Positions 4,716 to 20,003 of a DNA stretch of 64,000 bases are shown here, one piece after another. Below the pieces are notes generated by a model. It saw only the letters and a program-made list of their open reading frames with translations, was not told the origin of the DNA and searched no databases. The stretch is from Granulicella cerasi (lineage in GTDB: Bacteria > Acidobacteriota > Terriglobia > Terriglobales > Acidobacteriaceae). The first letter of the stretch is position 1. Each line of letters begins with the position of its first letter. Location of the stretch: the NCBI RefSeq assembly GCF_025685575.1, contig NZ_JAGSYD010000003.1:310001-374000 (forward strand), given 5' to 3'. Both the position numbers and the translations under genes were made by a program.

Positions 4716-5693
4716 ATGGCACAGGCGCTTCAAACGATGACTGCAAACGACACCAAGACTCTCGGCTCCGCACTGCTCGAACGCGTAGGAAATACGCCCC
4801 TCATTCGCCTCGATCGCCTCACGGCTGATCTGCCAGGCGTCCAGATCCTCGGCAAAGCCGAGTGGGCCAACCCCGGCGGCAGCGTGAAGGACCGCGCGGC
4901 CTCGGCTATCGTCGCGGACGCGCAGGCCAAGGGCCAGCTCGCACCCGGCAAACATCTGCTCGACGCGACCTCCGGCAACACCGGCATCGCATACTCCATG
5001 CTCGGCGCCGCCATGGGCTTCCCGGTCACGCTCTGCGTGCCGTCGAACGTCAGCCCCGAGCGGAAGCATATCCTCGCAGCCTACGGCGCGAACATCGTGT
5101 GGACCGACCCCGCCGACGGCTCTGATGGTGCCATCCGCATGGCGCGCAAGCTCTTCGCCGAGCAGCCCGAGAAGTACTTCTACGCCAACCAGTACGGCAA
5201 CGACAACAACTGGCGCGCGCACTACAACACCACCGCGAACGAGATTTGGCAGCAAACTGATGGCCGCGTGACGCACTTCGTCGCGGGCCTCGGCACCTCG
5301 GGCACCTTCGTCGGCACCACGCGCCGCCTCAAGGAACTGAACCCGAACATCCAGTGCTACTCCATGCAGCCCGACTCGCCGTTCAACGGCCTGGAAGGCC
5401 TCAAGCACATGGAGACGGCCATCGTTCCGCCGATCTACGACGCCATGCTCGCCGACCGTGACATCCCCATGGAGACCGAGCGCGCCTACAGGATGGCCAA
5501 GCGCCTGGGCCGCACACAGGGCCTGCTCGTCGGCGTCAGCGCGGCCGCCGCGGTCACCACGGCGCTCGATGTGGCCAAGGAAGAGGCCGCCGCCGGACGC
5601 GAGGCCGTTATCGTCACGATCCTCTGCGACTCCGCCGACAAGTACCTCAGCGAGCGCTTCTGGTCGGACCCGCGCTACGACGAGATTTCGTAG
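4716..5693 (+). CDS. cysM: PLP-dependent cysteine synthase, CysM type
   Basis: This enzyme makes cysteine from an activated serine (O-acetyl- or O-phosphoserine) and a sulfur donor. Visible motifs are VGNTPLIRLDRL, the PLP lysine in NPGGSVKDRAA, the substrate loop TSGNTG, the phosphate-binding GLGTSGTFVG, and GLLVGVSAAAA near the end. The length of 325 aa is normal. A second ATG at 4737 gives MTANDTK and may be the true start, because neither ATG has a strong Shine-Dalgarno. A JAMM hydrolase follows after 40 bases, and a sulfur carrier and its activator lie 3.6 kb on. By analogy with mycobacterial CysM/CysO/Mec, the sulfur source is probably a carrier thiocarboxylate rather than free sulfide. 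That last step is inference. Confidence 0.9.
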   Translation: MAQALQTMTANDTKTLGSALLERVGNTPLIRLDRLTADLPGVQILGKAEWANPGGSVKDRAASAIVADAQAKGQLAPGKHLLDATSGNTGIAYSMLGAAMGFPVTLCVPSNVSPERKHILAAYGANIVWTDPADGSDGAIRMARKLFAEQPEKYFYANQYGNDNNWRAHYNTTANEIWQQTDGRVTHFVAGLGTSGTFVGTTRRLKELNPNIQCYSMQPDSPFNGLEGLKHMETAIVPPIYDAMLADRDIPMETERAYRMAKRLGRTQGLLVGVSAAAAVTTALDVAKEEAAAGREAVIVTILCDSADKYLSERFWSDPRYDEIS

Positions 5694-5733: not shown

Positions 5734-6168
5734 GTGAGCCTTCTCCTCTCCCAAGCCCTTTACGACGAACTTCGACAGCACGGCGTGGAAACCTATCCCT
5801 ACGAATGCTGCGGCATCATGCTCGGCAAGGCCGTGGGCGAAGGCCTGCGTGTCGAGAGCCTCATCCGCGCCGGAAACACCCGCACCGACTCTGCGCACAA
5901 CCGCTACAACATCGCGCCGCAGGAGCTCATCAAGGCCCAGCGCGAGGCCCGCACCGCCGGCCTCGACATCATCGGCTTCTACCACTCGCACCCTGACCAC
6001 CCCGCGCAGTGGTCCCAGACCGACTTCGCCGAAGCCCACTGGTTCGGCTGCGCCTACGTCATCACGGCGGTCGACCACGGTCACCCCACGGCGACGAACA
6101 GCTTCCTGCTCAGCGGCACCAGCGAAGAGGACAAACAGTTCCTCCAGCAGCCCATCGCGGTCGAGTAA
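5734..6168 (+). CDS. JAMM/M67 metallohydrolase, Mec-like (carrier-cysteine hydrolase)
   Basis: The JAMM zinc motif is complete: HSHP, six residues, then SQTD, with the upstream Glu in YECCGIMLGK. In the mycobacterial pathway the Mec enzyme cleaves cysteine from the CysO C-terminus. The protein has 144 aa and no signal peptide. The start is GTG at 5734, with AAGGAA seven bases upstream. It follows cysM as its operon partner. Besides releasing cysteine it could also trim the Cys-rich tail of the carrier encoded at 9303, since related JAMM enzymes are known to mature carriers of this type. Function by homology and context is strong; the tail-trimming role is inference. Confidence 0.85.
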   Translation: MSLLLSQALYDELRQHGVETYPYECCGIMLGKAVGEGLRVESLIRAGNTRTDSAHNRYNIAPQELIKAQREARTAGLDIIGFYHSHPDHPAQWSQTDFAEAHWFGCAYVITAVDHGHPTATNSFLLSGTSEEDKQFLQQPIAVE

Positions 6169-6249: not shown

Positions 6250-8403
6250 CTACGGACGCGCGCCGATCTTGTTCATTTTTGATGCCAGCGCCAGTGGCGC
6301 GACAACCGGCGTGCCGAGGCCGACATACATAACAATCGGGCCGGAGCTTGCGCCCATCACAGCCACCCACACGTTACCGGAGCCGTCGATCGCGATACTG
6401 TTCGGCGCGCCGATAGAGGTACTCACTGGTCCAGCCGTGCCTCCCGTCGTTCCCGCAGTGCCTGTGAATCCCGACGTCGGCGTCAAAGCAACACCGGCAC
6501 TCGAGAATTTCGAGATCGAACCGCCTGTCGTGTTCGGCACCCAGGCATTGCCTGAGCCATCAATTGCGATGGTTCGCGGAGCCTTGAGTCCGCCACCGGT
6601 GTAGGGCGGTTGCATCGTGTACGAAGTTCCCGATCCTGTAAATTTCACCAGCGCGTTGTTCGCACTGTCGACGACCCACACACTGTTGCTGTGGTCGATC
6701 GCCAGCCCCGACGGTGTTCCAATGGAGTTCGTATGGAATCGAGCATACGTATTCGGGTTTGCCTGCGAAAACACCGCCACGCCCCCCGGATTGCCGCCAT
6801 TGACCAGATCGATCCAGACATTGTTGTTTGAATCCACAGCAGCGTCCGGCCCAACCATATCTACAGGCAATCCATTCTGATAGTCCGTGTAGTCCCCTGA
6901 AAGGATCCTGAATCCCACACTGCTCGACAACGGTGTCGGGCCAAACGCGATCACTTCGGCACCGGCTTGAGAATTCAACGCGCACTCAGTGGTGTCGTTC
7001 TGATCGATAGCAAGGCTATAGCTATTCGAACAAAGGTCTTCGTTGTACGCCGAGGCGCCGTTGACAGGAAGCTGGTGAAGATAGGGCCCAAAGGTGTAGT
7101 CATAGTCAGTCATGTACACGTTGTGTTTGGAGTCCACGGCGACCGTAAGTAGATAGTCCCCGCCATACCCGTCCGCTACAGCCAACAAGCTCCCTGCATA
7201 TCCGGCCTTGCTGCCAGCAAGGCGACCTGCTGATGTGTAATAGCTGTTGGAGAAGCGATAGAAACCTGCTTGACCAACCCATACGTCGCCGTTCCAGTCC
7301 GTTGCAAGCACATACGGATCTGCGGCTTTGCCGTAGTCATCCACAGGAAGCTGCAGGCTGATTGCAAGCGTAAAGTCGTTCGGCGCTGTCGCGAGCGTGG
7401 GCTGGAATGGAACCTGCGACGGCATATCGCTGTACAGCTTCGCTAGCGTCACCGGCGAGGTCGAGACACCCACGGGGTTATGGGCCAGATTCATCATGGC
7501 CGTCACGGTATCTGCCGTGGTCGGCGTACCCGTAAAGGCATACAGATCTGCGCAGGGCGTGCTCGTAACGCCTGAAGTCTGAATGCAGTCCGCCATGATG
7601 TCGGCAATGGTGTTGATTGTTGCCGTGGGAACGGTACCGTTGCCCGCAGGCGTTTTGGTGAGCGCCGTGCCCGAGCCTTCGCTCACGAGGTTGAATACGT
7701 TGGAGAAAGCATTCGCCATGCCTGTGACAGCCTGCGCCTGAGTCGTGTTGCCTGTCACACCTTCGTCGTCGGAGATGTGCGTGGAATCCGTCGCGAAACC
7801 CGCCACAGCATAGGCTGCGGCCACGGTAGACACCTCATTCACGTTCACAACCGTCGCCGACGTCACGGTCGAGCATTCGCCGAGCACCGCCATCACAGCC
7901 GCTGTTGCGTTCACACCGTTCACGCCGCCGCTCTTCGTCGGGTCGCCGCCCATCGTGTTGCCGCCCAGCGCGTAGACATACAGCTGCTGCCCCGTTGTAC
8001 ACGGGCCCCACTTGCCCGTCAGGACGAAGCTGCCATCGGCGCCGCTGGTGACGTAGTAGTTGCCGTTCGTGTCCACGCTCGTGCCCGTGGTGCTCTTGAT
8101 CAGCGAGACAGACTTGTTCGTCGTAGCCGCTGCCAGCCCGGGACCTGCGTTGCCGGCAGTGCCTGCCGCAAACAGATACACCTTCGCGCCGTTGACCGGA
8201 ATGTTGCCGCCGATCACCTTGCCGGAGATCGCAACGTTATGCGCATCAACGATGTCGCCGCTCGGCGCACTGAGGTTCGACATACCGCAGCCCGTCAGCG
8301 CCAAAACGCCCAACAAAGCCGCAGAAGCCAGTGAAAGGTTGAACCACCGCGAACGATGATTTTGCGGAGAGCCACTCGATGAAAAAACGCAGCAATTGAA
8401 CAT
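6250..8403 (-). CDS. NHL/SMP-30-type beta-propeller lipoprotein, 717 aa
   Basis: The N-terminus carries basic residues, a hydrophobic stretch and a lipobox LTGC near residue 38, so this is a secreted lipoprotein. Residues of about 55-150 form an Ig/carboxypeptidase-like module ([23 protein letters not shown]). The C-terminal half repeats the blade signature of NHL propellers: [39 protein letters not shown] precedes the ATG. Such proteins are common in Acidobacteria and are usually of unknown role. It lies on the opposite strand between the two halves of the cysteine-pathway genes, which suggests insertion into an ancestral cluster. Confidence 0.8.
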
Positions 8404-9058: not shown

Positions 9059-9263
9059 GCGTCTGCGCCATTCCATAACGTCGTTGGCGATGTGGCTTCG
9101 CGGACGGACAGATAGGTCCTGCTAAACGCCCTTGTAGGAAGAACAGGTGCTGACTCATCGGCGTGCGGCCTAGAAGCAGCTTGCACACAACATGAGAGAG
9201 CGCCGCTCCAATTTCGGCAAAGATGCGGCCCGGTCGTCGCTATGCGCCACCTGAGGATGAATC

Positions 9264-9293
9264 CTGACGCAATCCTCGCGCATCTCGTAGAAT
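9264..9293 (+). promoter_or_regulatory. Candidate sigma-70-type promoter before the sulfur carrier gene
   Basis: CTGACG, 18 bases, then TAGAAT. The ATG follows nine bases after the -10, so the mRNA leader would be only a few bases long. This suggests that the carrier and activator genes have their own promoter. Confidence 0.45.
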
Positions 9294-9302
9294 GGAAAAC
9301 AA

Positions 9303-9608
9303 ATGAAGATCCACATCCCCACACCGCTGCGCGCTTACACCGACAAGCAGGAAACTGTTTCCGTCGATGGCGCCACCGTGGCTGAAGGGCTTGAGGCGCT
9401 TACCGTCGCGTATCCCGCGATCAAGCAGCACCTCTTCTCCCCCGACGGCAAGCTGCGGAGCTTCGTCAACGTGTACCTTGACGACGAAGATGTCCGCTAC
9501 CTCCCGGAAAAGGAAGCCACCACCGTAGCTCCCGAAGCCGAACTCACGATCATCCCTTCCATCGCTGGCGGCTGTTGTAGCCCGCTGGCTGCCGGCTGTT
9601 GTCGCTAG
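9303..9608 (+). CDS. Ubiquitin-fold sulfur carrier (CysO/MoaD/ThiS-like) with Cys-rich tail
   Basis: The protein has 101 aa with a beta-grasp pattern ending in ELTIIPSIAGG, the terminus expected of CysO and MoaD, which carry sulfur as a C-terminal thiocarboxylate. The frame does not stop after Gly89-Gly90 but continues with CCSPLAAGCCR and then TAG. These 11 residues contain four Cys and must presumably be removed before adenylation. The E1-like activator follows 109 bases later, and the cysM-JAMM pair is 3.1 kb upstream. The leader has at best a weak Shine-Dalgarno. The identity of the fold and the role as carrier in cysteine synthesis are likely; the purpose of the tail is unknown. Confidence 0.87.
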   Translation: MKIHIPTPLRAYTDKQETVSVDGATVAEGLEALTVAYPAIKQHLFSPDGKLRSFVNVYLDDEDVRYLPEKEATTVAPEAELTIIPSIAGGCCSPLAAGCCR

Positions 9609-9717
9609 GCTAAGCTCCACCAGCCGCGAGAACCCGCAGCCCCGTTCCCCCTACAATCTGAACCAGCCTCTGCGTCGTGAGCCGTTGCTCGCGCTATCGC
9701 CTACACGAAGGAACCCG

Positions 9718-10944
9718 ATGCCAGCCACCTTTGAAGCACCCACCGCCACCGAGCTGCCGAAGCTCTCTAACGAAGAAATCGCCCGCTACTCGCGGCACCT
9801 CATCCTGCCCGAAGTCGGCATGGAAGGCCAGCAGAAGCTGAAGGCCGCGAAGGTGCTCTGCGTCGGCACCGGCGGTCTGGGTGCGCCGCTGGCGCTCTAC
9901 CTTGCCGCCGCGGGCATCGGCACCATCGGCCTCGTCGACTTCGACGTCGTCGATGAATCCAACCTGCAGCGCCAGATCATTCACTCGCAGTCCACCGTCG
10001 GCAAGCTCAAGGTCGACTCGGCCGAGATCATGCTCAAGGGCCTGAACAAGAACGTCAACGTCATCAAGCACAACACGATGTTGACCTCGGCCAACGCGCT
10101 CGAGATCTTCAAGGACTACGACGTCATCGCCGACGGCACCGACAACTTCCAGACGCGCTACCTCGTCAACGACGCCTGCGTGCTCACCGGCAAGCCCAAC
10201 GCCTACGGCTCCATCTTCCGCTTCGAGGGCCAGGCATCGGTCTTCGCCACCGAGGAAGGCCCCTGCTACCGTTGCCTCTACCCCGAGCCGCCGCCCCCGG
10301 GCCTCGTCCCGAGCTGCGCTGAGGGTGGCGTGCTCGGCATTCTGCCCGGCCTCGTCGGCGTCATTCAGGCGACCGAGGTCATCAAGCTGATCCTCGGCAT
10401 CGGCGAGCCGCTCGTCGGCCGTCTGCTGCTGGTGGACGCGCTGAACATGGGCTTCCGCACGCTGAAGCTGCGTAAGAACCCCGCCTGCCCGGCCTGCGGC
10501 ACTCGCGAGATCAAGGAACTGATCGACTACGACCAGTTCTGCGGCATCGCTCCGCCGACCGAAACCGGCCCGCTGGAAGTGTCTTCCTTCGGTTCGGTCG
10601 CGGCCGCCAACGTCGTGGACGGCATCCCGCAGGTGACGGTCGAAGAGTACAAGGCGCGCCTCGATAAGGGCGACAAGCCCTTCCTGCTCGACGTCCGCGA
10701 GCCGCACGAGTACGCGATCGTCAACCTCGGCGCACCGCTCATCCCGGTGGGCCAGGTCGGTTCGCGCCTTGCGGACATCCCCGTTGGCAAGGACGAGGAA
10801 ATCCTCGTGCACTGCAAATCTGGCGGACGCTCGCAGAAGGCCGCACTTGAGCTGAAGGCCGCAGGCTTCACCAACGTGAAGAACCTCGCCGGCGGCATCA
10901 CAGCCTGGGCCGAGCGCGTCGACACCAGCCTGCCCAAGTACTAG
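9718..10944 (+). CDS. E1-like adenylyltransferase/sulfurtransferase (MoeZ-like: ThiF + rhodanese)
   Basis: This enzyme adenylates the C-terminal Gly of a sulfur carrier and then sulfurates it. The ThiF/MoeB domain covers about residues 20-270: LPEVGMEGQQKL, the ATP loop VGTGGLGAP, the DGTDNF motif, and two zinc Cys pairs (CYRC, CPAC). The rhodanese domain covers about 310-408, with the active-site Cys in VHCKSGGRS. I start at 9718 (MPATFEAP), since GAAGGAA precedes it, although the frame is open 11 codons further. Its immediate neighbour is the carrier at 9303. In mycobacteria MoeZ activates CysO, so the same role is expected here. Confidence 0.9.
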   Translation: MPATFEAPTATELPKLSNEEIARYSRHLILPEVGMEGQQKLKAAKVLCVGTGGLGAPLALYLAAAGIGTIGLVDFDVVDESNLQRQIIHSQSTVGKLKVDSAEIMLKGLNKNVNVIKHNTMLTSANALEIFKDYDVIADGTDNFQTRYLVNDACVLTGKPNAYGSIFRFEGQASVFATEEGPCYRCLYPEPPPPGLVPSCAEGGVLGILPGLVGVIQATEVIKLILGIGEPLVGRLLLVDALNMGFRTLKLRKNPACPACGTREIKELIDYDQFCGIAPPTETGPLEVSSFGSVAAANVVDGIPQVTVEEYKARLDKGDKPFLLDVREPHEYAIVNLGAPLIPVGQVGSRLADIPVGKDEEILVHCKSGGRSQKAALELKAAGFTNVKNLAGGITAWAERVDTSLPKY

Positions 10945-15285: not shown

Positions 15286-15310
15286 AGTTTCAACGGCCCA
15301 GTCTGGAAGG

Positions 15311-15316
15311 CATAAT
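15311..15316 (+). promoter_or_regulatory. -10-like element CATAAT, 9 bases before the allB start
   Basis: CATAAT ends nine bases before the ATG at 15326, with no strong Shine-Dalgarno between. The leader would be about 3 bases. No convincing -35 is visible. Confidence 0.3.
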
Positions 15317-15325
15317 CAGAAGTTA

Positions 15326-16726
15326 ATGGTACACGCTATCCGCAGCCGCCGTGTGGTCACGCCCGAGGGCGTTCGTGATGCTGTCGTCGTCATCGACGGC
15401 GAATGCATCGTTGCCGTCAAGCCGTTTGCAGAGCTTGCCCCCGGCACGCCTGTCGAAGATCTCGGCGACGTCGCACTGCTCCCCGGCCTCATCGACGCAC
15501 ACACGCACATCAACGAACCCGGTCGCACCGAGTGGGAAGGCTTCGCCACGGCGACGCGCGCGGCCGCTGCCGGCGGTTTCACCACGCTCATCGACATGCC
15601 GCTCAACTGCCTGCCGGAGACGATCAACGTCGCCTCGCTCGAGATCAAGCGCGAGGCCGCCAAAGGGCAATGCCTGGTCGACTACGCGCTGTGGGGCGGC
15701 GCGGTCGATGGCAACGAGCATGAGCTCGAGCCGCTCGCCGTCGCCGGCGTGCCCGGCTACAAGTGCTTTCTCATCTACCCCGGCTGCGATGGCTTCACCT
15801 CCATCGATCGCGAGAACCTCGAACTCGCGCTGCCGCACATTGCGAAGACCAGGCTGCCGCTGCTCGTGCACGCAGAGCTCGCCGCCCCCATCGACGCAGC
15901 CGTCGCAGAACTCAACAGCAGCGGCGCAAACTGGCGCGAGTACAAGACCTATCTCGCCTCGCGCCCCGACGAAGCTGAACTGCAAGCGATCGAGATGCTG
16001 CTGGAGTTGCAGCGCAAGTACGGCTTCCGCCTGCACATCGTGCACCTCGCCACGGCGAAGGCGCTGCCCATGCTGCGCGCAGCGAAGGCGGAAGGCCTGG
16101 CGCTCACCGTCGAAACCTGCCCACACTACTTGCATCTTGTTGCTGAAGAGATCGCCGATGGCGCCACGCTCTTCAAGTGCGCGCCACCGATTCGTTCTGC
16201 TGCCAATCGCGATGAACTCTGGCAGGCCCTGCTCGACGGCACGCTCGACCTTATCGCCACCGACCACTCCCCTTGCCCGCCAGAGATGAAGCGCCTCACG
16301 GCGACCGAACCCGGCCAGGAGTGCGGCCGCTTCGACGAAGCCTGGGGCGGCATCGCCTCTCTCAGCACCGCGCTGCCTGTGTTGTGGACCGAATTTGCGC
16401 GCCGCGGCATCGGTCTTGAAAAACTCGCGCAGTGGATGTCACTCGCGCCCGCGCAGCTTGCAGGGCTCAGCGAATCCATCGGCTCCATCGAGCCCGGCAA
16501 GCACGCGAACTTCGTCGCGTTCGACACCGAAGCCAGCTTCACGCTCACCGAAGCCGATCTGCATTATCGCCACAAAGTCTCGCCGTATCTCGGCGAAACG
16601 CTGCAGGGCGTGGTGCGCGGCACCTGGCTGCGCGGCGCAAGACTCTACACCAACACCAGCGGCAGCGGTGTGTTCGCCGACACAGCGAACGGCCGCGAGT
16701 ACGCACTATCCTGTGCTCTCGACTAA
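15326..16726 (+). CDS. allB: Allantoinase
   Basis: AllB opens the hydantoin ring of allantoin to give allantoate. It is an amidohydrolase-fold enzyme of 466 aa. Metal-binding and catalytic features are visible: DAHTHINEPGRTEWEGF, the carboxylated Lys in GYKCFL, VHAEL, HIVHLA and the Asp in IATDHSPC. The frame is open more than 500 codons upstream, antisense to guaD and hom, but family alignment and the ATG after AGTTA place the start here. It begins a run of four tightly spaced genes (allB, uraD, uraH, uaZ) ended by a hairpin terminator. Confidence 0.94.
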   Translation: MVHAIRSRRVVTPEGVRDAVVVIDGECIVAVKPFAELAPGTPVEDLGDVALLPGLIDAHTHINEPGRTEWEGFATATRAAAAGGFTTLIDMPLNCLPETINVASLEIKREAAKGQCLVDYALWGGAVDGNEHELEPLAVAGVPGYKCFLIYPGCDGFTSIDRENLELALPHIAKTRLPLLVHAELAAPIDAAVAELNSSGANWREYKTYLASRPDEAELQAIEMLLELQRKYGFRLHIVHLATAKALPMLRAAKAEGLALTVETCPHYLHLVAEEIADGATLFKCAPPIRSAANRDELWQALLDGTLDLIATDHSPCPPEMKRLTATEPGQECGRFDEAWGGIASLSTALPVLWTEFARRGIGLEKLAQWMSLAPAQLAGLSESIGSIEPGKHANFVAFDTEASFTLTEADLHYRHKVSPYLGETLQGVVRGTWLRGARLYTNTSGSGVFADTANGREYALSCALD

Positions 16727-16735
16727 TCTCGATCT

Positions 16736-17308
16736 ATGTCTTTGAACTTCACTCCATCCTCGAACCCGATTCTGGAAGCATGGAACCGCACTGAGCAGGA
16801 CACGGCCACGCAGACCATCCTGCCCTGCAATGGCTCGCGCGCGTGGGCCATCGGCGTTGTGAACGACTACCCTTACGACACGCCCGAGCAGCTCTTCGCT
16901 TCGGCCGACAAAGTCTGGTGGTCGCTCGACGCAGGCGCATGGCAAGAGGCCTTTGACTCGCATCCGCGCATCGGCGAAGCCAAGGCCAAAGCGGCCACCG
17001 AGAAGTCGCTCTCGTGGAGCGAAGGCGAGCAGGCAGCCGCAAACCCTGACGATCTGGTGAAGGCACAACTCGCCGCCGCCAACAAAGAGTACGAAGCAAA
17101 GTTCGGTCGCATCTTCATCGTCTGCGCGACAGGAAAATCTGCCGCAGAGATGCTCGCCATCCTTCAAAAGCGCATGAGCAACGACGCGGCCACCGAGCTC
17201 CGCGAAGCCGCTGAACAACAACGCCAGATCACACAGCTTCGCCTGCGCAAGTGGCTCGAACTCCCGCTCGATTATCCCGCTGCGCCTGCGATCAAGGAAG
17301 CAAAGTAA
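16736..17308 (+). CDS. uraD: 2-oxo-4-hydroxy-4-carboxy-5-ureidoimidazoline (OHCU) decarboxylase
   Basis: UraD performs the second step after urate oxidase, decarboxylating OHCU stereospecifically to (S)-allantoin. The family motif with the catalytic His, DSHPRIGE, is present, as are LNFTPSSN near the start and the EYEAKFGRIFIVCATG block. 190 aa, slightly long but normal. It lies nine bases after allB and its stop overlaps the uraH start (TAATG), so it is coupled to the next pathway enzyme. Confidence 0.94.
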   Translation: MSLNFTPSSNPILEAWNRTEQDTATQTILPCNGSRAWAIGVVNDYPYDTPEQLFASADKVWWSLDAGAWQEAFDSHPRIGEAKAKAATEKSLSWSEGEQAAANPDDLVKAQLAAANKEYEAKFGRIFIVCATGKSAAEMLAILQKRMSNDAATELREAAEQQRQITQLRLRKWLELPLDYPAAPAIKEAK

Positions 17309-17643
17309 TGGGTCTCTCCACACACATTCTCGACGTCAATCTCGGCAAGCCCGCAGCGGATGTTTCGCTCGTCCTGAGCTGCCTCAACGAAGATCAATGG
17401 GACGAGCTCGGTCGCGGCTCCACCGATGCCGATGGTCGTTGCCGCACGCTGCTCGGCGATCATCATCTCGAGGTCGGCACCTACAAGATCCGCTTCGCCA
17501 CCAGCGAGTACTACGCCGCGCAACACATCACCGGCCTTTATCCTTACGTCGAAATCGTCTTCAACGTTCGCGAACCCGAGCAGCATTACCACATCCCGTT
17601 GCTGCTGACAGCGCACGGCTACTCGACGTATCGCGGCAGCTGA
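17308..17643 (+). CDS. uraH: 5-hydroxyisourate hydrolase (transthyretin-like)
   Basis: HIUase hydrolyses 5-hydroxyisourate, the product of urate oxidase, to OHCU. The protein has 111 aa with the three family signatures: STHILDVNLGKPA at the N-terminus (active-site His), the central Arg in DGRCR, and the C-terminal tetrapeptide YRGS preceded by YHIPLLL. It forms a tetramer in known homologues. It overlaps uraD by one base and is followed by uaZ after 47 bases. Confidence 0.95.
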   Translation: MGLSTHILDVNLGKPAADVSLVLSCLNEDQWDELGRGSTDADGRCRTLLGDHHLEVGTYKIRFATSEYYAAQHITGLYPYVEIVFNVREPEQHYHIPLLLTAHGYSTYRGS

Positions 17644-17690
17644 CACCACTCCCCCGAGAAGCAGATCCACACGAAAGAGGAAACACATCG

Positions 17691-18554
17691 ATGGCAATCG
17701 CAAAACTCGCTGACAACCGTTATGGCAAATCGCTCGTGCGCATCGTGCGCGTCACCAAGCACGAAGACCACCACGACCTCGACGAATGGACCGTGCAGAT
17801 TCTGCTCACGGGCGACATGGAGACGGCGCACACCGAAGGCGACAACTCGAAGATTCTGCCAACGGACACGATGAAGAACACCTGCTACTTCGTCGCCAGC
17901 GAATCGAAAGCCACATCGATCGAGGAGTACGCGAAGGCGCTCATCGACTACGTCCTCACGCGCCAGTCGCACATCACCAGCGCCGAAGTCATCGTGAAGT
18001 CGCACCTCTGGAAGCGCCTCACCGTCGACGGCAAGCCATATCCCACGGCCTTCATGCGCGGCTCAGAAGAAGTCGCTACGACGCGCGTCGTGCGCCAGCA
18101 GGGCGGCGAGTTTGAAGTCGTCAGCGGCCTCGATGGACTCTTCGTGCTGAAGACCACGCAGAGCAGCTTCGTCGGCTACATCAAGGACCACCTCACCACG
18201 CTGCCCGAGACCACCGACCGCCTCTTCGGCACCGTCGTAAAGGCCGAGTGGACCTATACCGACGACGTCAATATCGCAGGCTTCGACTTCAACGCCACAC
18301 GCGAACTCATCCGCGAGACGATGGTTCAGACCTTCGCCAAGCACGAATCGCTGAGCGTGCAGCAGACCCTCTTCCAGATGGGCGAAGACGCGCTCGCCGC
18401 GACCGACACCATCGAGAGCGTCTACATGCTGATGCCGAACAAGCACAACCTGCTGATCGACCTGAAGCGCTTCGGCCTCGAGAACCCGAACCACATCTTC
18501 GTCCCCACCGACGAGCCGCACGGCACGATCGAAGCCACAATCGTCCGCGCGTAA
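17691..18554 (+). CDS. uaZ: Urate oxidase (cofactor-free uricase)
   Basis: Uricase oxidises urate with O2 to 5-hydroxyisourate and H2O2. The protein has 287 aa. Recognisable are the N-terminal NRYGKSLVRIVRV, the catalytic Lys/Thr region GDNSKILPTDTMKNT, and LMPNKHNLLIDLKRFGLEN near the end. It has no bound cofactor in the family. AAAGAGG stands about 11 bases before the ATG. It is the last gene of the allB-uraD-uraH-uaZ run; a terminator lies downstream. Confidence 0.95.
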   Translation: MAIAKLADNRYGKSLVRIVRVTKHEDHHDLDEWTVQILLTGDMETAHTEGDNSKILPTDTMKNTCYFVASESKATSIEEYAKALIDYVLTRQSHITSAEVIVKSHLWKRLTVDGKPYPTAFMRGSEEVATTRVVRQQGGEFEVVSGLDGLFVLKTTQSSFVGYIKDHLTTLPETTDRLFGTVVKAEWTYTDDVNIAGFDFNATRELIRETMVQTFAKHESLSVQQTLFQMGEDALAATDTIESVYMLMPNKHNLLIDLKRFGLENPNHIFVPTDEPHGTIEATIVRA

Positions 18555-18581
18555 ACACCACCTCCGAGTGCCCATCTCGCT

Positions 18582-18632
18582 CACCACGAACGGGTGCCCC
18601 AGGTCTCGCTTCTGAGACCTGGGTTCGCAGGA
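18582..18632. repeat. Dispersed hairpin repeat, copy 2
   Basis: ACCACGAACGGGTGCCCC is followed by the hairpin arms CAGGTCTC and GAGACCTG around GCTTCT, then GGTTCGCAGG. Nearly the same block recurs at 54934-54984, with the arm changes (CAGG/CATG) compensated on the other side. It lies between uaZ and its terminator. Confidence 0.65.
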
Positions 18633-18645
18633 TCCCTCCACCAGC

Positions 18646-18680
18646 AAGCTCTCTCCTCACCGAGAGAGCTTTGTTCTTTA
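18646..18680 (+). terminator. Rho-independent terminator after urate oxidase
   Basis: AAGCTCTCTC pairs with GAGAGAGCTT around a six-base loop and is followed by TGTTCTTTA. It separates the allB-uaZ operon from allC. Confidence 0.75.
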
Positions 18681-18755
18681 CTCACCACGAACGCCATCGC
18701 GCACCGTAGCGCCCTCCGCAGTTTCCTTTCCTTCCCCCGCCCCACACGCAACCAC

Positions 18756-18761
18756 TACAAT
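18756..18761 (+). promoter_or_regulatory. -10-like element TACAAT, 6 bases before the allC start
   Basis: TACAAT is followed by six C residues and the ATG at 18768. Transcription would start on the start codon itself. There is no Shine-Dalgarno. Confidence 0.4.
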
Positions 18762-18767
18762 CCCCCC

Positions 18768-19997
18768 ATGACCCCGAACGACCGCGCCGAACGCATCATC
18801 GCTCGTTGCCGCGAACTCGCACGCATCTCTGACGTCGAAGGCGAAACCACGCGCCTCTTTCTCTCGCCGAAGACCCGCGACGCGCACACATTGCTCTCCT
18901 GGTGGATGCGCGAGGCCGGGCTCGAGGCGCGCACCGACGACATCGGCAACCTGCGCGCCGTGCGTCGCTCGGCACACGACGACGCGCCCACGCTCGTGCT
19001 CTTCTCGCACATCGATACCGTGCCCAACGCTGGCGCCTTCGACGGCCCGCTCGGCGTCATTCTCGGCCTCGAAGCCATCGCCGCCCTCGCGCAAACGCCG
19101 CTCCCCTTCCATATCGAACTCATCGCCTTCAGCGAAGAAGAAGGCGTTCGCTTCGCGTTCCCGTTTCTCTCCTCACGCGCCGCAGTGGGCGAACTCACCG
19201 ACGAACATCTCGCCCACACCGACAAAGACGGCATCACAGTCGCCGACGCACTCCGCAACTTCGACCTCGATCCGGCACGCATCGCCACGACCGCGCCCTT
19301 CGCATCGAACACCTTCGCGGCAATCGAGGTGCACATCGAGCAAGGCCCGGTGCTCGAAAGCGAGAACGCCTTCATCGCCGTCGTCGAAGCCATCGTAGGC
19401 CAATCGCGCCTCTCCTTCACCTTTGAAGGCCAGGCCAACCACGCAGGCACCACGCCCATGGCGCTACGGCATGATGCGCTTGTCGCCGCCGCGCACTTCA
19501 TCATCGAGGTCGACAACTACGCGAGCAATCATCGCCAACTCGTCGCCACCGTCGGCCGCATCGAGGCCCTGCCCGGTGCGATGAACGTCGTGCCCGGCAC
19601 CGTGACCTGCACGCTCGACGTGCGCCACCCGAAGGACGAGTCACGCCACGCTGCCGTTGCCCACCTCGTCACCAAGGCCCAGGCCGCAGGCGAGCATCGC
19701 GGCGTCAAGGTGAAGGCCACGCTGCTCAGCGAGCAACGTGCTGTGCCGATGGACCACGCGCTCACGCAGAAGCTCCACGCGGCGGCCGAGCGCGCGGGCC
19801 ACGACGCACTGCAACTCTTCTCAGGCGCAGGCCATGACTCCATGATCGTCGCGTCGCATGTGCCGACGACGATGCTCTTCGTGCGCTCCCCCGGCGGCAT
19901 CAGCCACAACCCCGCCGAGGACATACGCGCCGAAGACGTCGAAGCCGCGCTCGGCACCCTCGTTAACCTGCTGCTGCACCTGCATCCGCACCAGTGA
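18768..19997 (+). CDS. allC: Allantoate amidohydrolase (M20 family)
   Basis: AllC hydrolyses allantoate to ureidoglycine, CO2 and ammonia. It is a two-metal M20 peptidase-fold enzyme of 409 aa. Metal-site motifs are SHIDTVPNAGAFDGPLG, SEEEGVRF and EVHIEQGPVLE; the dimer-domain signature is QANHAGTTPM. The C-terminal SGAGHDSMIVAS and GGISHNPAE fit allantoate hydrolases better than the second M20 enzyme encoded at 20859. The start at 18768 follows the family N-terminus. It opens the second half of the ureide cluster. An N-carbamoyl amino acid hydrolase is the main alternative, made unlikely by context. Confidence 0.88.
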   Translation: MTPNDRAERIIARCRELARISDVEGETTRLFLSPKTRDAHTLLSWWMREAGLEARTDDIGNLRAVRRSAHDDAPTLVLFSHIDTVPNAGAFDGPLGVILGLEAIAALAQTPLPFHIELIAFSEEEGVRFAFPFLSSRAAVGELTDEHLAHTDKDGITVADALRNFDLDPARIATTAPFASNTFAAIEVHIEQGPVLESENAFIAVVEAIVGQSRLSFTFEGQANHAGTTPMALRHDALVAAAHFIIEVDNYASNHRQLVATVGRIEALPGAMNVVPGTVTCTLDVRHPKDESRHAAVAHLVTKAQAAGEHRGVKVKATLLSEQRAVPMDHALTQKLHAAAERAGHDALQLFSGAGHDSMIVASHVPTTMLFVRSPGGISHNPAEDIRAEDVEAALGTLVNLLLHLHPHQ

Positions 19998-20003
19998 GTC
20001 GCA

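Follow-up and report, generated by a model that had tools for sequence, protein, structure and literature searches.

Sulfur carrier locus and partner genes

The window, the whole stretch of 64,000 nucleotides of Granulicella cerasi DNA that was analysed, contains a sulfur carrier, CysM, a JAMM peptidase and a MoeB-rhodanese protein, that is, the set of genes of a CysO-type cysteine pathway. The features of the locus are given here by position.

4716..5693, + strand: CysM-type cysteine synthase
5734..6168, + strand: JAMM peptidase, with motif HSHPDHPAQWSQTD plus an upstream Glu; HxH...S..D intact
9264..9293, + strand: sigma-70-like promoter match just 5' of the carrier (9/12, a consensus match only)
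9303..9608, + strand: CysO/ThiS-type sulfur carrier ORF, in which GG is internal and is followed by a Cys-rich tail of 11 residues (translation, Pfam, PDB match, AlphaFold2 model)
9567..9572, + strand: codons of Gly89-Gly90, the expected mature C-terminus (CysO alignment; GG invariant in a nine-row alignment)
9573..9605, + strand: Cys-rich tail, interpreted as a cysteine leader fused to the carrier, with Cys codons TGT at 9573-9578 and 9597-9602
9597..9608, + strand: TGTTGTCGC and TAG, 5' arm of a putative Cys-codon stem
9626..9633, + strand: GCGAGAAC box 3' of the stop codon, present in some Granulicella only; it may pair with GUUGUCGC
9634..9683, + strand: C-rich, G-poor stretch 5' of moeB (C 23, G 10 in 50 nt), a candidate Rho loading region
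9718..10944, + strand: MoeB-rhodanese (E1/sulfurtransferase), the gene 3' of the leader, with CxxC at 183 and 257 and CKSGGRS at 366

Translation of 9303-9608 gave 101 residues with the C-terminus SIAGG followed by CCSPLAAGCCR and a TAG stop, which confirmed the reading in the preliminary description. Residues 3-90 matched Pfam ThiS (PF02597, E 1.1e-9), in keeping with a ThiS-family beta-grasp domain, and the best solved match over the same residues was Mycobacterium tuberculosis CysO (PDB 3dwg_C, E 5.4e-14). Sulfur carriers have a C-terminal GG that is free when active, and CysO 3dwg_C itself terminates there, whereas Gly89-Gly90 of the gene product is succeeded by 11 further residues. Cysteines occur at positions 91, 92, 99 and 100 and nowhere else in the protein; they are encoded by two TGT pairs, the second directly 5' of CGC-TAG. 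In the AlphaFold2 model the blocks up to residue 80 had mean pLDDT values of 83-91, while residues 88-101 fell below 50 and the last blocks reached only 40.

The gene set resembles the M. tuberculosis CysO-CysM-Mec+-MoeZR pathway in having a CysO-like carrier, CysM, a JAMM protein and a MoeB with a rhodanese domain, although the two CxxC motifs of the MoeB protein are, according to the same source, a mark of MoeBR rather than MoeZR (PMC3227635). In most loci compared, cysM, the JAMM gene, the carrier and moeB form a compact operon in this order. The JAMM partner that had been proposed from the window alone proved to be real: the gene has an intact motif and belongs to the operon. In the window an ORF of 717 residues on the opposite strand (6250-8403, -) separates the JAMM gene from the carrier, which elsewhere mostly lie in a compact operon. 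At approximately 15300-20000 of the window there are ORFs that, judged by eye, resemble a cluster for the breakdown of purines or allantoin, with a hydrolase, a decarboxylase, a urate oxidase-like protein and an amidohydrolase.

Residues beyond the Gly-Gly motif in related carriers

A carrier match was found in 161 of 200 genomes of the family. We read 136 distinct orthologous carriers, 129 from the family search and seven Granulicella loci from a poly-Cys pattern; these pattern-chosen loci (L172, L174-L179) were left out of the main counts, which are based on the 129. One locus without GG (L047), matches below 85 bits (paralogues, e.g. L002) and copies with identical first 270 nt were left out of the carrier set, and 15 carrier matches with E <1e-20 lie outside the sample. 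For the gap enrichment, carriers without a moeB match, with a gap of <40 or >600 nt, or fused to MoeB were omitted, which left 96 relatives. The paralogue L002 is a second carrier in the genome of the window (G000:C4:106768-107037); it is 36% identical and ends SIAGGLL, two residues beyond GG.

Fifteen of the 129 carriers continued in frame into MoeB with GG internal, and 113 of the 114 unfused carriers had at least one residue after GG (none, 1; one, 30; two to four, 33; five or more, 50). Of 80 named loci that made up a further set, one ended at GG and 79 went beyond it, 28 of them by more than 45 residues, and 27 of these 28 extensions carried a MoeB-like RYSRHL motif. The tail counts in both sets indicate that residues beyond GG are the rule in this group, and the comparison bears out the earlier claim that the carrier is made as a proform. 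Nine loci with the carrier and its own MoeB-rhodanese in one frame were L039, L041, L044, L049, L072, L075, L076, L088 and L091; L205, L207, L210, L214, L220 and L224 bring these fusions to 15. Such a carrier-E1 fusion should be a natural polyprotein, for which a cut after GG is expected. The JAMM gene lay 313-622 nt upstream in 14 of the 15 fusions, the fifteenth having only ~240 nt of upstream sequence. Among the unfused carriers it was present in the stretch obtained for 94 of 114; the other 20 were without it, some owing to a short flank, and at L052 no JAMM gene was found within 7 kb upstream of the carrier.

The thiocarboxylate is formed on the C-terminal Gly of the carrier, as described for the M. 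tuberculosis system, in which Mec+ hydrolyses the CysO-cysteine adduct (PMC3227635), so that tails of any sequence, even a whole E1, should need a cut. As in a JAMM-matured carrier, the window carrier extends past GG and is accompanied by a JAMM gene whose active-site motif is intact. We consider that the residues after GG are probably removed by the JAMM peptidase of the operon, which is likely to trim the tail as well as to release cysteine. In Pseudomonas thioquinolobactin synthesis, where the proteins are QbsE and QbsD, the C-terminal dipeptide of QbsE is removed by a JAMM protein. The window carrier is like QbsE, which is named as a sulfur carrier (PMC3053476), in being made with residues after GG and having a JAMM partner; unlike it, the tail there has two residues and no codon run, and the pathway is different.

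Cysteine was the commonest residue at position +1 after GG (25/114). Ten carriers (L014, L016, L021, L026, L027, L040, L042, L060, L200 and L212) ended exactly in GG-Cys-stop, mostly with TGC, the gene-encoded equivalent of the CysO-cysteine adduct. These observations, together with the near universality of residues after GG (113/114 and 79/80), agree with an explanation in which the tail has no role beyond that of a maturation peptide, which the JAMM enzyme cuts to control activation and whose cysteines mimic the CysO-cysteine substrate. Against this, the M. tuberculosis adduct is reported to be produced by CysM and not by translation (PMC3227635), and such a role leaves unexplained the features of the tail described below, namely its TGT codons, the occurrence of the Cys run as a separate ORF and the bases shared past the stop codon. 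We regard it as unlikely to be the whole account.

Poly-Cys runs as separate reading frames

The survey of homologues found Cys-rich tails after GG in relatives, as had been suggested for checking the first reading. The tails of the closest relatives read CCSLPAEGCCR (L179) and CCSLPAAGCCRS (L178), both loci being found by a pattern search that included TGTTGT, and a carrier of Granulicella sp. L46 ended in SAATGCCR. A stop-codon or sequencing error as the origin of the tail was ruled out, the tail being common to close Granulicella relatives.

In 18 relatives the poly-Cys run was a separate short ORF between the carrier and moeB (for example MPRYSACCCCCCPSCCCR, MARTSQYRPACGCCCCCMCCCR and MNATCHTRRCCCCCR, each directly followed by a stop), so that this type of run occurs as an ORF of its own at the corresponding position in other genera. 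Fifteen of the 18 started within -4..+5 nt of the carrier stop codon (12 with ATG, three with TTG or GTG), which suggests coupled translation, and the separate ORFs stopped 29-80 nt 5' of moeB. L048 looked like an intermediate: its Cys run continues the frame of the carrier, and the tail contains in-frame ATGs. In four loci the poly-Cys ORF lay between the JAMM gene and the carrier (L024, L038, L050 and L074), and in L227 a poly-Cys leader was located ~100 nt 5' of cysM. The distance from the tail to moeB reached 2.3 kb in L056 and 1.4 kb in L058.

Four Cys within eleven residues had also been taken to point to redox or metal control, that is, to a switch in which metal binding or disulfide formation by these Cys decides whether the carrier matures. 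The comparison did not support this part of the preliminary description. Tails ranged from 0 to 32 residues and many were Cys-free, the number and spacing of Cys varied freely, the run can be a separate peptide, and the last blocks of the carrier model had the low pLDDT given above; a switch of this kind is barely credible.

Cysteine codons and enrichment between the carrier and moeB

In the 129 relatives not chosen for Cys, the carrier cores contained one Cys in 11,515 residues and the tails 130 in 786. With the pattern-chosen loci left out, the tail Cys codons were TGT in 87 cases and TGC in 43, as compared with 85 TGT and 982 TGC in moeB of the same loci. The Cys run was positioned at the end of the reading frame, adjoining the stop codon. 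At least three Cys in the last 10 residues of an ORF were present in 32 of 96 gaps (40-600 nt from GG to moeB), while dinucleotide shuffles gave an expectation of 2.26, the reverse complement two and moeB interiors none. With at least four Cys the figures were 27 of 96 gaps against 0.20 for shuffles, one for the reverse complement and none for moeB interiors, and a stretch of equal length 5' of the carrier gave 4/95 (at least three Cys) and 3/95 (at least four); it is in this upstream stretch that L024, L038, L050 and L074 have their poly-Cys ORFs. Including the seven pattern-chosen loci, 35 of 103 gaps had a run against 2.35 expected. Since the relatives are not independent, these enrichment figures count records and not events.

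The run was not universal: no run of at least three Cys was found in this gap in 64 of the 96 unselected relatives, and the tail of genome G116 (L055) was Cys-free. This, and the wide variation in tail length and sequence, would fit a neutral tail, in which anything after GG is tolerated, given its removal by the JAMM enzyme, and the Cys run arose by drift. However, such drift is hard to reconcile with 32 gaps of 96 where 2.26 were expected, with the TGT bias and with the separate leader ORFs, and we consider a neutral origin very unlikely.

On a larger scale, the 64-kb window contained two ORF ends with four Cys in the last 10 residues and CC, counting both strands. The pattern TGTTGTCGCTAG showed no genome-wide enrichment, with 61 places across 200 genomes and more for its reversed control, and TGTTGTTGTCGC occurred genome-wide at 20 places in 11 genomes as compared with 18 for the reversed control. 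A gapped box pattern gave 104 matches in 28 genomes, some of them overlapping, against 75 in the control. Many pattern matches were ordinary coding sequence; of those to the gapped pattern, we followed the ones with a stop just after CGC, plus a few more.

Shared boxes, RNA structure and termination

In eight aligned Granulicella loci TGTTGTCGCT and the post-stop GCGAGAAC were invariant, while much of the tail and gap was divergent, although this conservation is weaker than it appears because most of the eight loci were found by searching for both boxes. The box search placed both boxes at the carrier in 10 of 28 genomes. Among seven Granulicella genomes taken without a box search, three had TGTTGTCGC and GCGAGAAC and G140 had GCGCGAAC; G116, G158 and G174 were without the box pair at the carrier.

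GUUGUCGC and GCGAGAAC can pair at 7 of 8 positions, with one G-G mismatch and the stop codon in a 20-nt loop, and the stem reached 11 pairs in the MFE folds of L052 and L174. Because the MAFFT alignment put leaders that have one additional codon ahead of the stop out of register, a script was used to count the pairs. Over 17 elements (11 carriers and six leaders of TonB-type receptors) the 12-position stem paired in 147 of 204 cells (0.72), and sliding the register by -3 to +2 gave 0.38-0.55; a slide of +3 scored higher (0.80, with fewer cells) because the UGU repeats allow a second register. Covariation consisted of one U-A pair that changed to C-G in L180, a clear compensatory change, and to U-G in L181, a wobble. 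Compared with shuffles, the stem had z values of -2.2 to -3.4 in L052, L057, L059 and L174, loci that were picked for showing a stem, and was weak in the window itself (z -0.54; longer stretch, -1.06). L057 and L059 belong to another genus, and there the partner of the UGU codons is a different 3' arm. For the window, we set aside a complete four-segment attenuator, the fold having a z of -1.06. We also rejected a known Rfam RNA family as the identity of the element: there were no matches at the gathering threshold in 12 loci and none at E up to 5 in the window at 9200-9800.

No intrinsic terminator was found in 9100-9800, and hence none between the carrier and moeB. The 50 nt past the box contained 372 C and 127 G over the 17 elements, whereas the 50 nt preceding the carrier, taken from 11 of these loci, contained 163 C and 146 G. 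Because a C-rich, G-poor stretch is present and an intrinsic terminator is not, Rho-dependent or translational attenuation at the carrier-moeB gap is favoured over a classical terminator. Rho has been proposed for the mycobacterial cys leaders, which likewise have no conserved terminator, by Seliverstov (PMC1262725).

The tail as a probable cysteine-responsive leader

The tail is best read as an RNA-level signal because of its TGT codons, its position by the stop codon, the separate leader ORFs, which are the most telling, the enrichment in the gap and the shared boxes. We propose that it is probably what an attenuator leader responsive to cysteine encodes, and that this leader has been joined, in frame, to the carrier gene at its 3' end and controls moeB-rhodanese. 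Regulation dependent on cysteine codons was the last-named idea of the preliminary description; the comparison, with the free-standing poly-Cys ORFs as the main evidence, bears it out and extends it as a prediction from sequence.

In the proposed mechanism, a shortage of charged tRNA(Cys) would cause the ribosome to stall on the UGU codons, where it would keep the GUUGUCGC/GCGAGAAC stem open and cover the stretch past the stop codon, allowing transcription or translation to proceed into moeB. With ample cysteine, it would finish and depart, and moeB would be attenuated, perhaps by Rho acting on the C-rich stretch. The tail peptide would be waste, and the JAMM enzyme would cut after GG, with the same chemistry as Mec+ on CysO-cysteine, to give the free carrier Gly. 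An in-frame leader fusion would be tolerated because the residues after GG are, by this scheme, removed.

The locus is like the poly-Cys leaders and attenuators described in Actinobacteria in having a Cys-codon run beside the stop of an ORF 5' of sulfur genes (PMC1262725; Canestrari 2020, as given in PMC13236596 and PMC9094748). Those leaders are free-standing short ORFs at the head of an operon in a different phylum, whereas in the window the run forms the 3' end of the carrier gene inside the operon, the free-standing form being present in the 18 relatives. It would work like a poly-Cys attenuator but lacks the free-standing ORF, and we therefore describe it as a variant and do not file it as a member: a putative cysteine leader that is fused to a sulfur carrier and probably trimmed from it. 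TnaC senses free Trp through its nascent peptide, and in this the present leader, in which the codons would sense charged tRNA, would be unlike tna. It would be like the tna-type Rho-dependent attenuation of Escherichia coli named in PMC1262725 in that a ribosome stalling where the leader ends could protect a Rho site beside the stop codon.

Neither a cysteine leader in Acidobacteria nor a leader fused to a sulfur carrier was found among the literature matches listed, which came mostly from outside subscription journals; leader genes in Acidobacteria are reported in general by a source that does not mention cysteine (PMC4833913). In this locus a functional protein would have taken up an attenuator leader, something that a pathway with its own protease for trimming after GG would allow. 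It would also be a case of a regulatory leader that changes place inside a single operon, being found ahead of cysM, ahead of the carrier, behind the carrier or fused to it, and it suggests that unusual C-termini of small proteins can reflect signals at the RNA level. How bacterial ubiquitin-like carriers mature, E1-fused ones included, becomes directly testable.

Poly-Cys leaders at other genes

Poly-Cys leaders were also present 5' of other genes, among them genes matching PF01507 and PF03601, which we take to be cysD and yeiH, respectively. In the genome of the window, inspection upstream of PF01507 matches revealed the poly-Cys ORF MRVLRAIAMCCHQAPAACCCH 5' of cysD (L254). The leader MKQNLTTVANACCMCCCMPRCCAGVCLL 5' of yeiH (L267) was followed by an 8-pair stem and UUUUGUAUUUG (z -2.0); a consensus scan showed only a shorter stem behind this leader. 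Behind yeiH, and 5' of a gene for a TonB-type receptor (L181), a pattern search found MIKLFTKMCSCCCRR, with GCGAGGAC past the stop codon. Relatives had leaders at cysD (L147, L251), yeiH (L157), a sulfatase gene (L110/L184) and others. Those at the TonB-type receptors, at L147 and L157 and at the sulfatase were retrieved by pattern, so they serve as examples and give no rates. Speaking against a general rule, six of nine Granulicella cysD genes had no leader with at least three Cys, and the same held for 17 of the family's 19 yeiH loci, the exceptions being L265 and L267.

These leaders raise the possibility, which we hold tentatively and at somewhat less than even chance, that one tail serves two systems, its codons being a cysteine sensor for E1 expression and its peptide a prosegment removed by the JAMM enzyme, and that the leaders form a cysteine regulon. 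If so, cysteine supply, carrier maturation and the level of E1 would be wired through the same eleven codons, and because the first Cys codons directly follow GG, starvation could stall the ribosome at the just-made mature GG end. The cysteine regulon of the Acidobacteriaceae would then comprise moeB, cysD, yeiH, the TonB-type receptor and the sulfatase; an acidobacterial regulon of this kind was not found described in the literature matches listed.

At L267:980-1160 (G000:C3 ~111,165-111,345) the yeiH leader and a hairpin with a U-rich tail resemble a classical cysteine attenuator. L253 and L254 have common stretches around ACCCTACCCGG and GAGGCTCGCAACACC between the leader position and cysD; these persist even when the leader no longer has a Cys run and may be a further RNA element.
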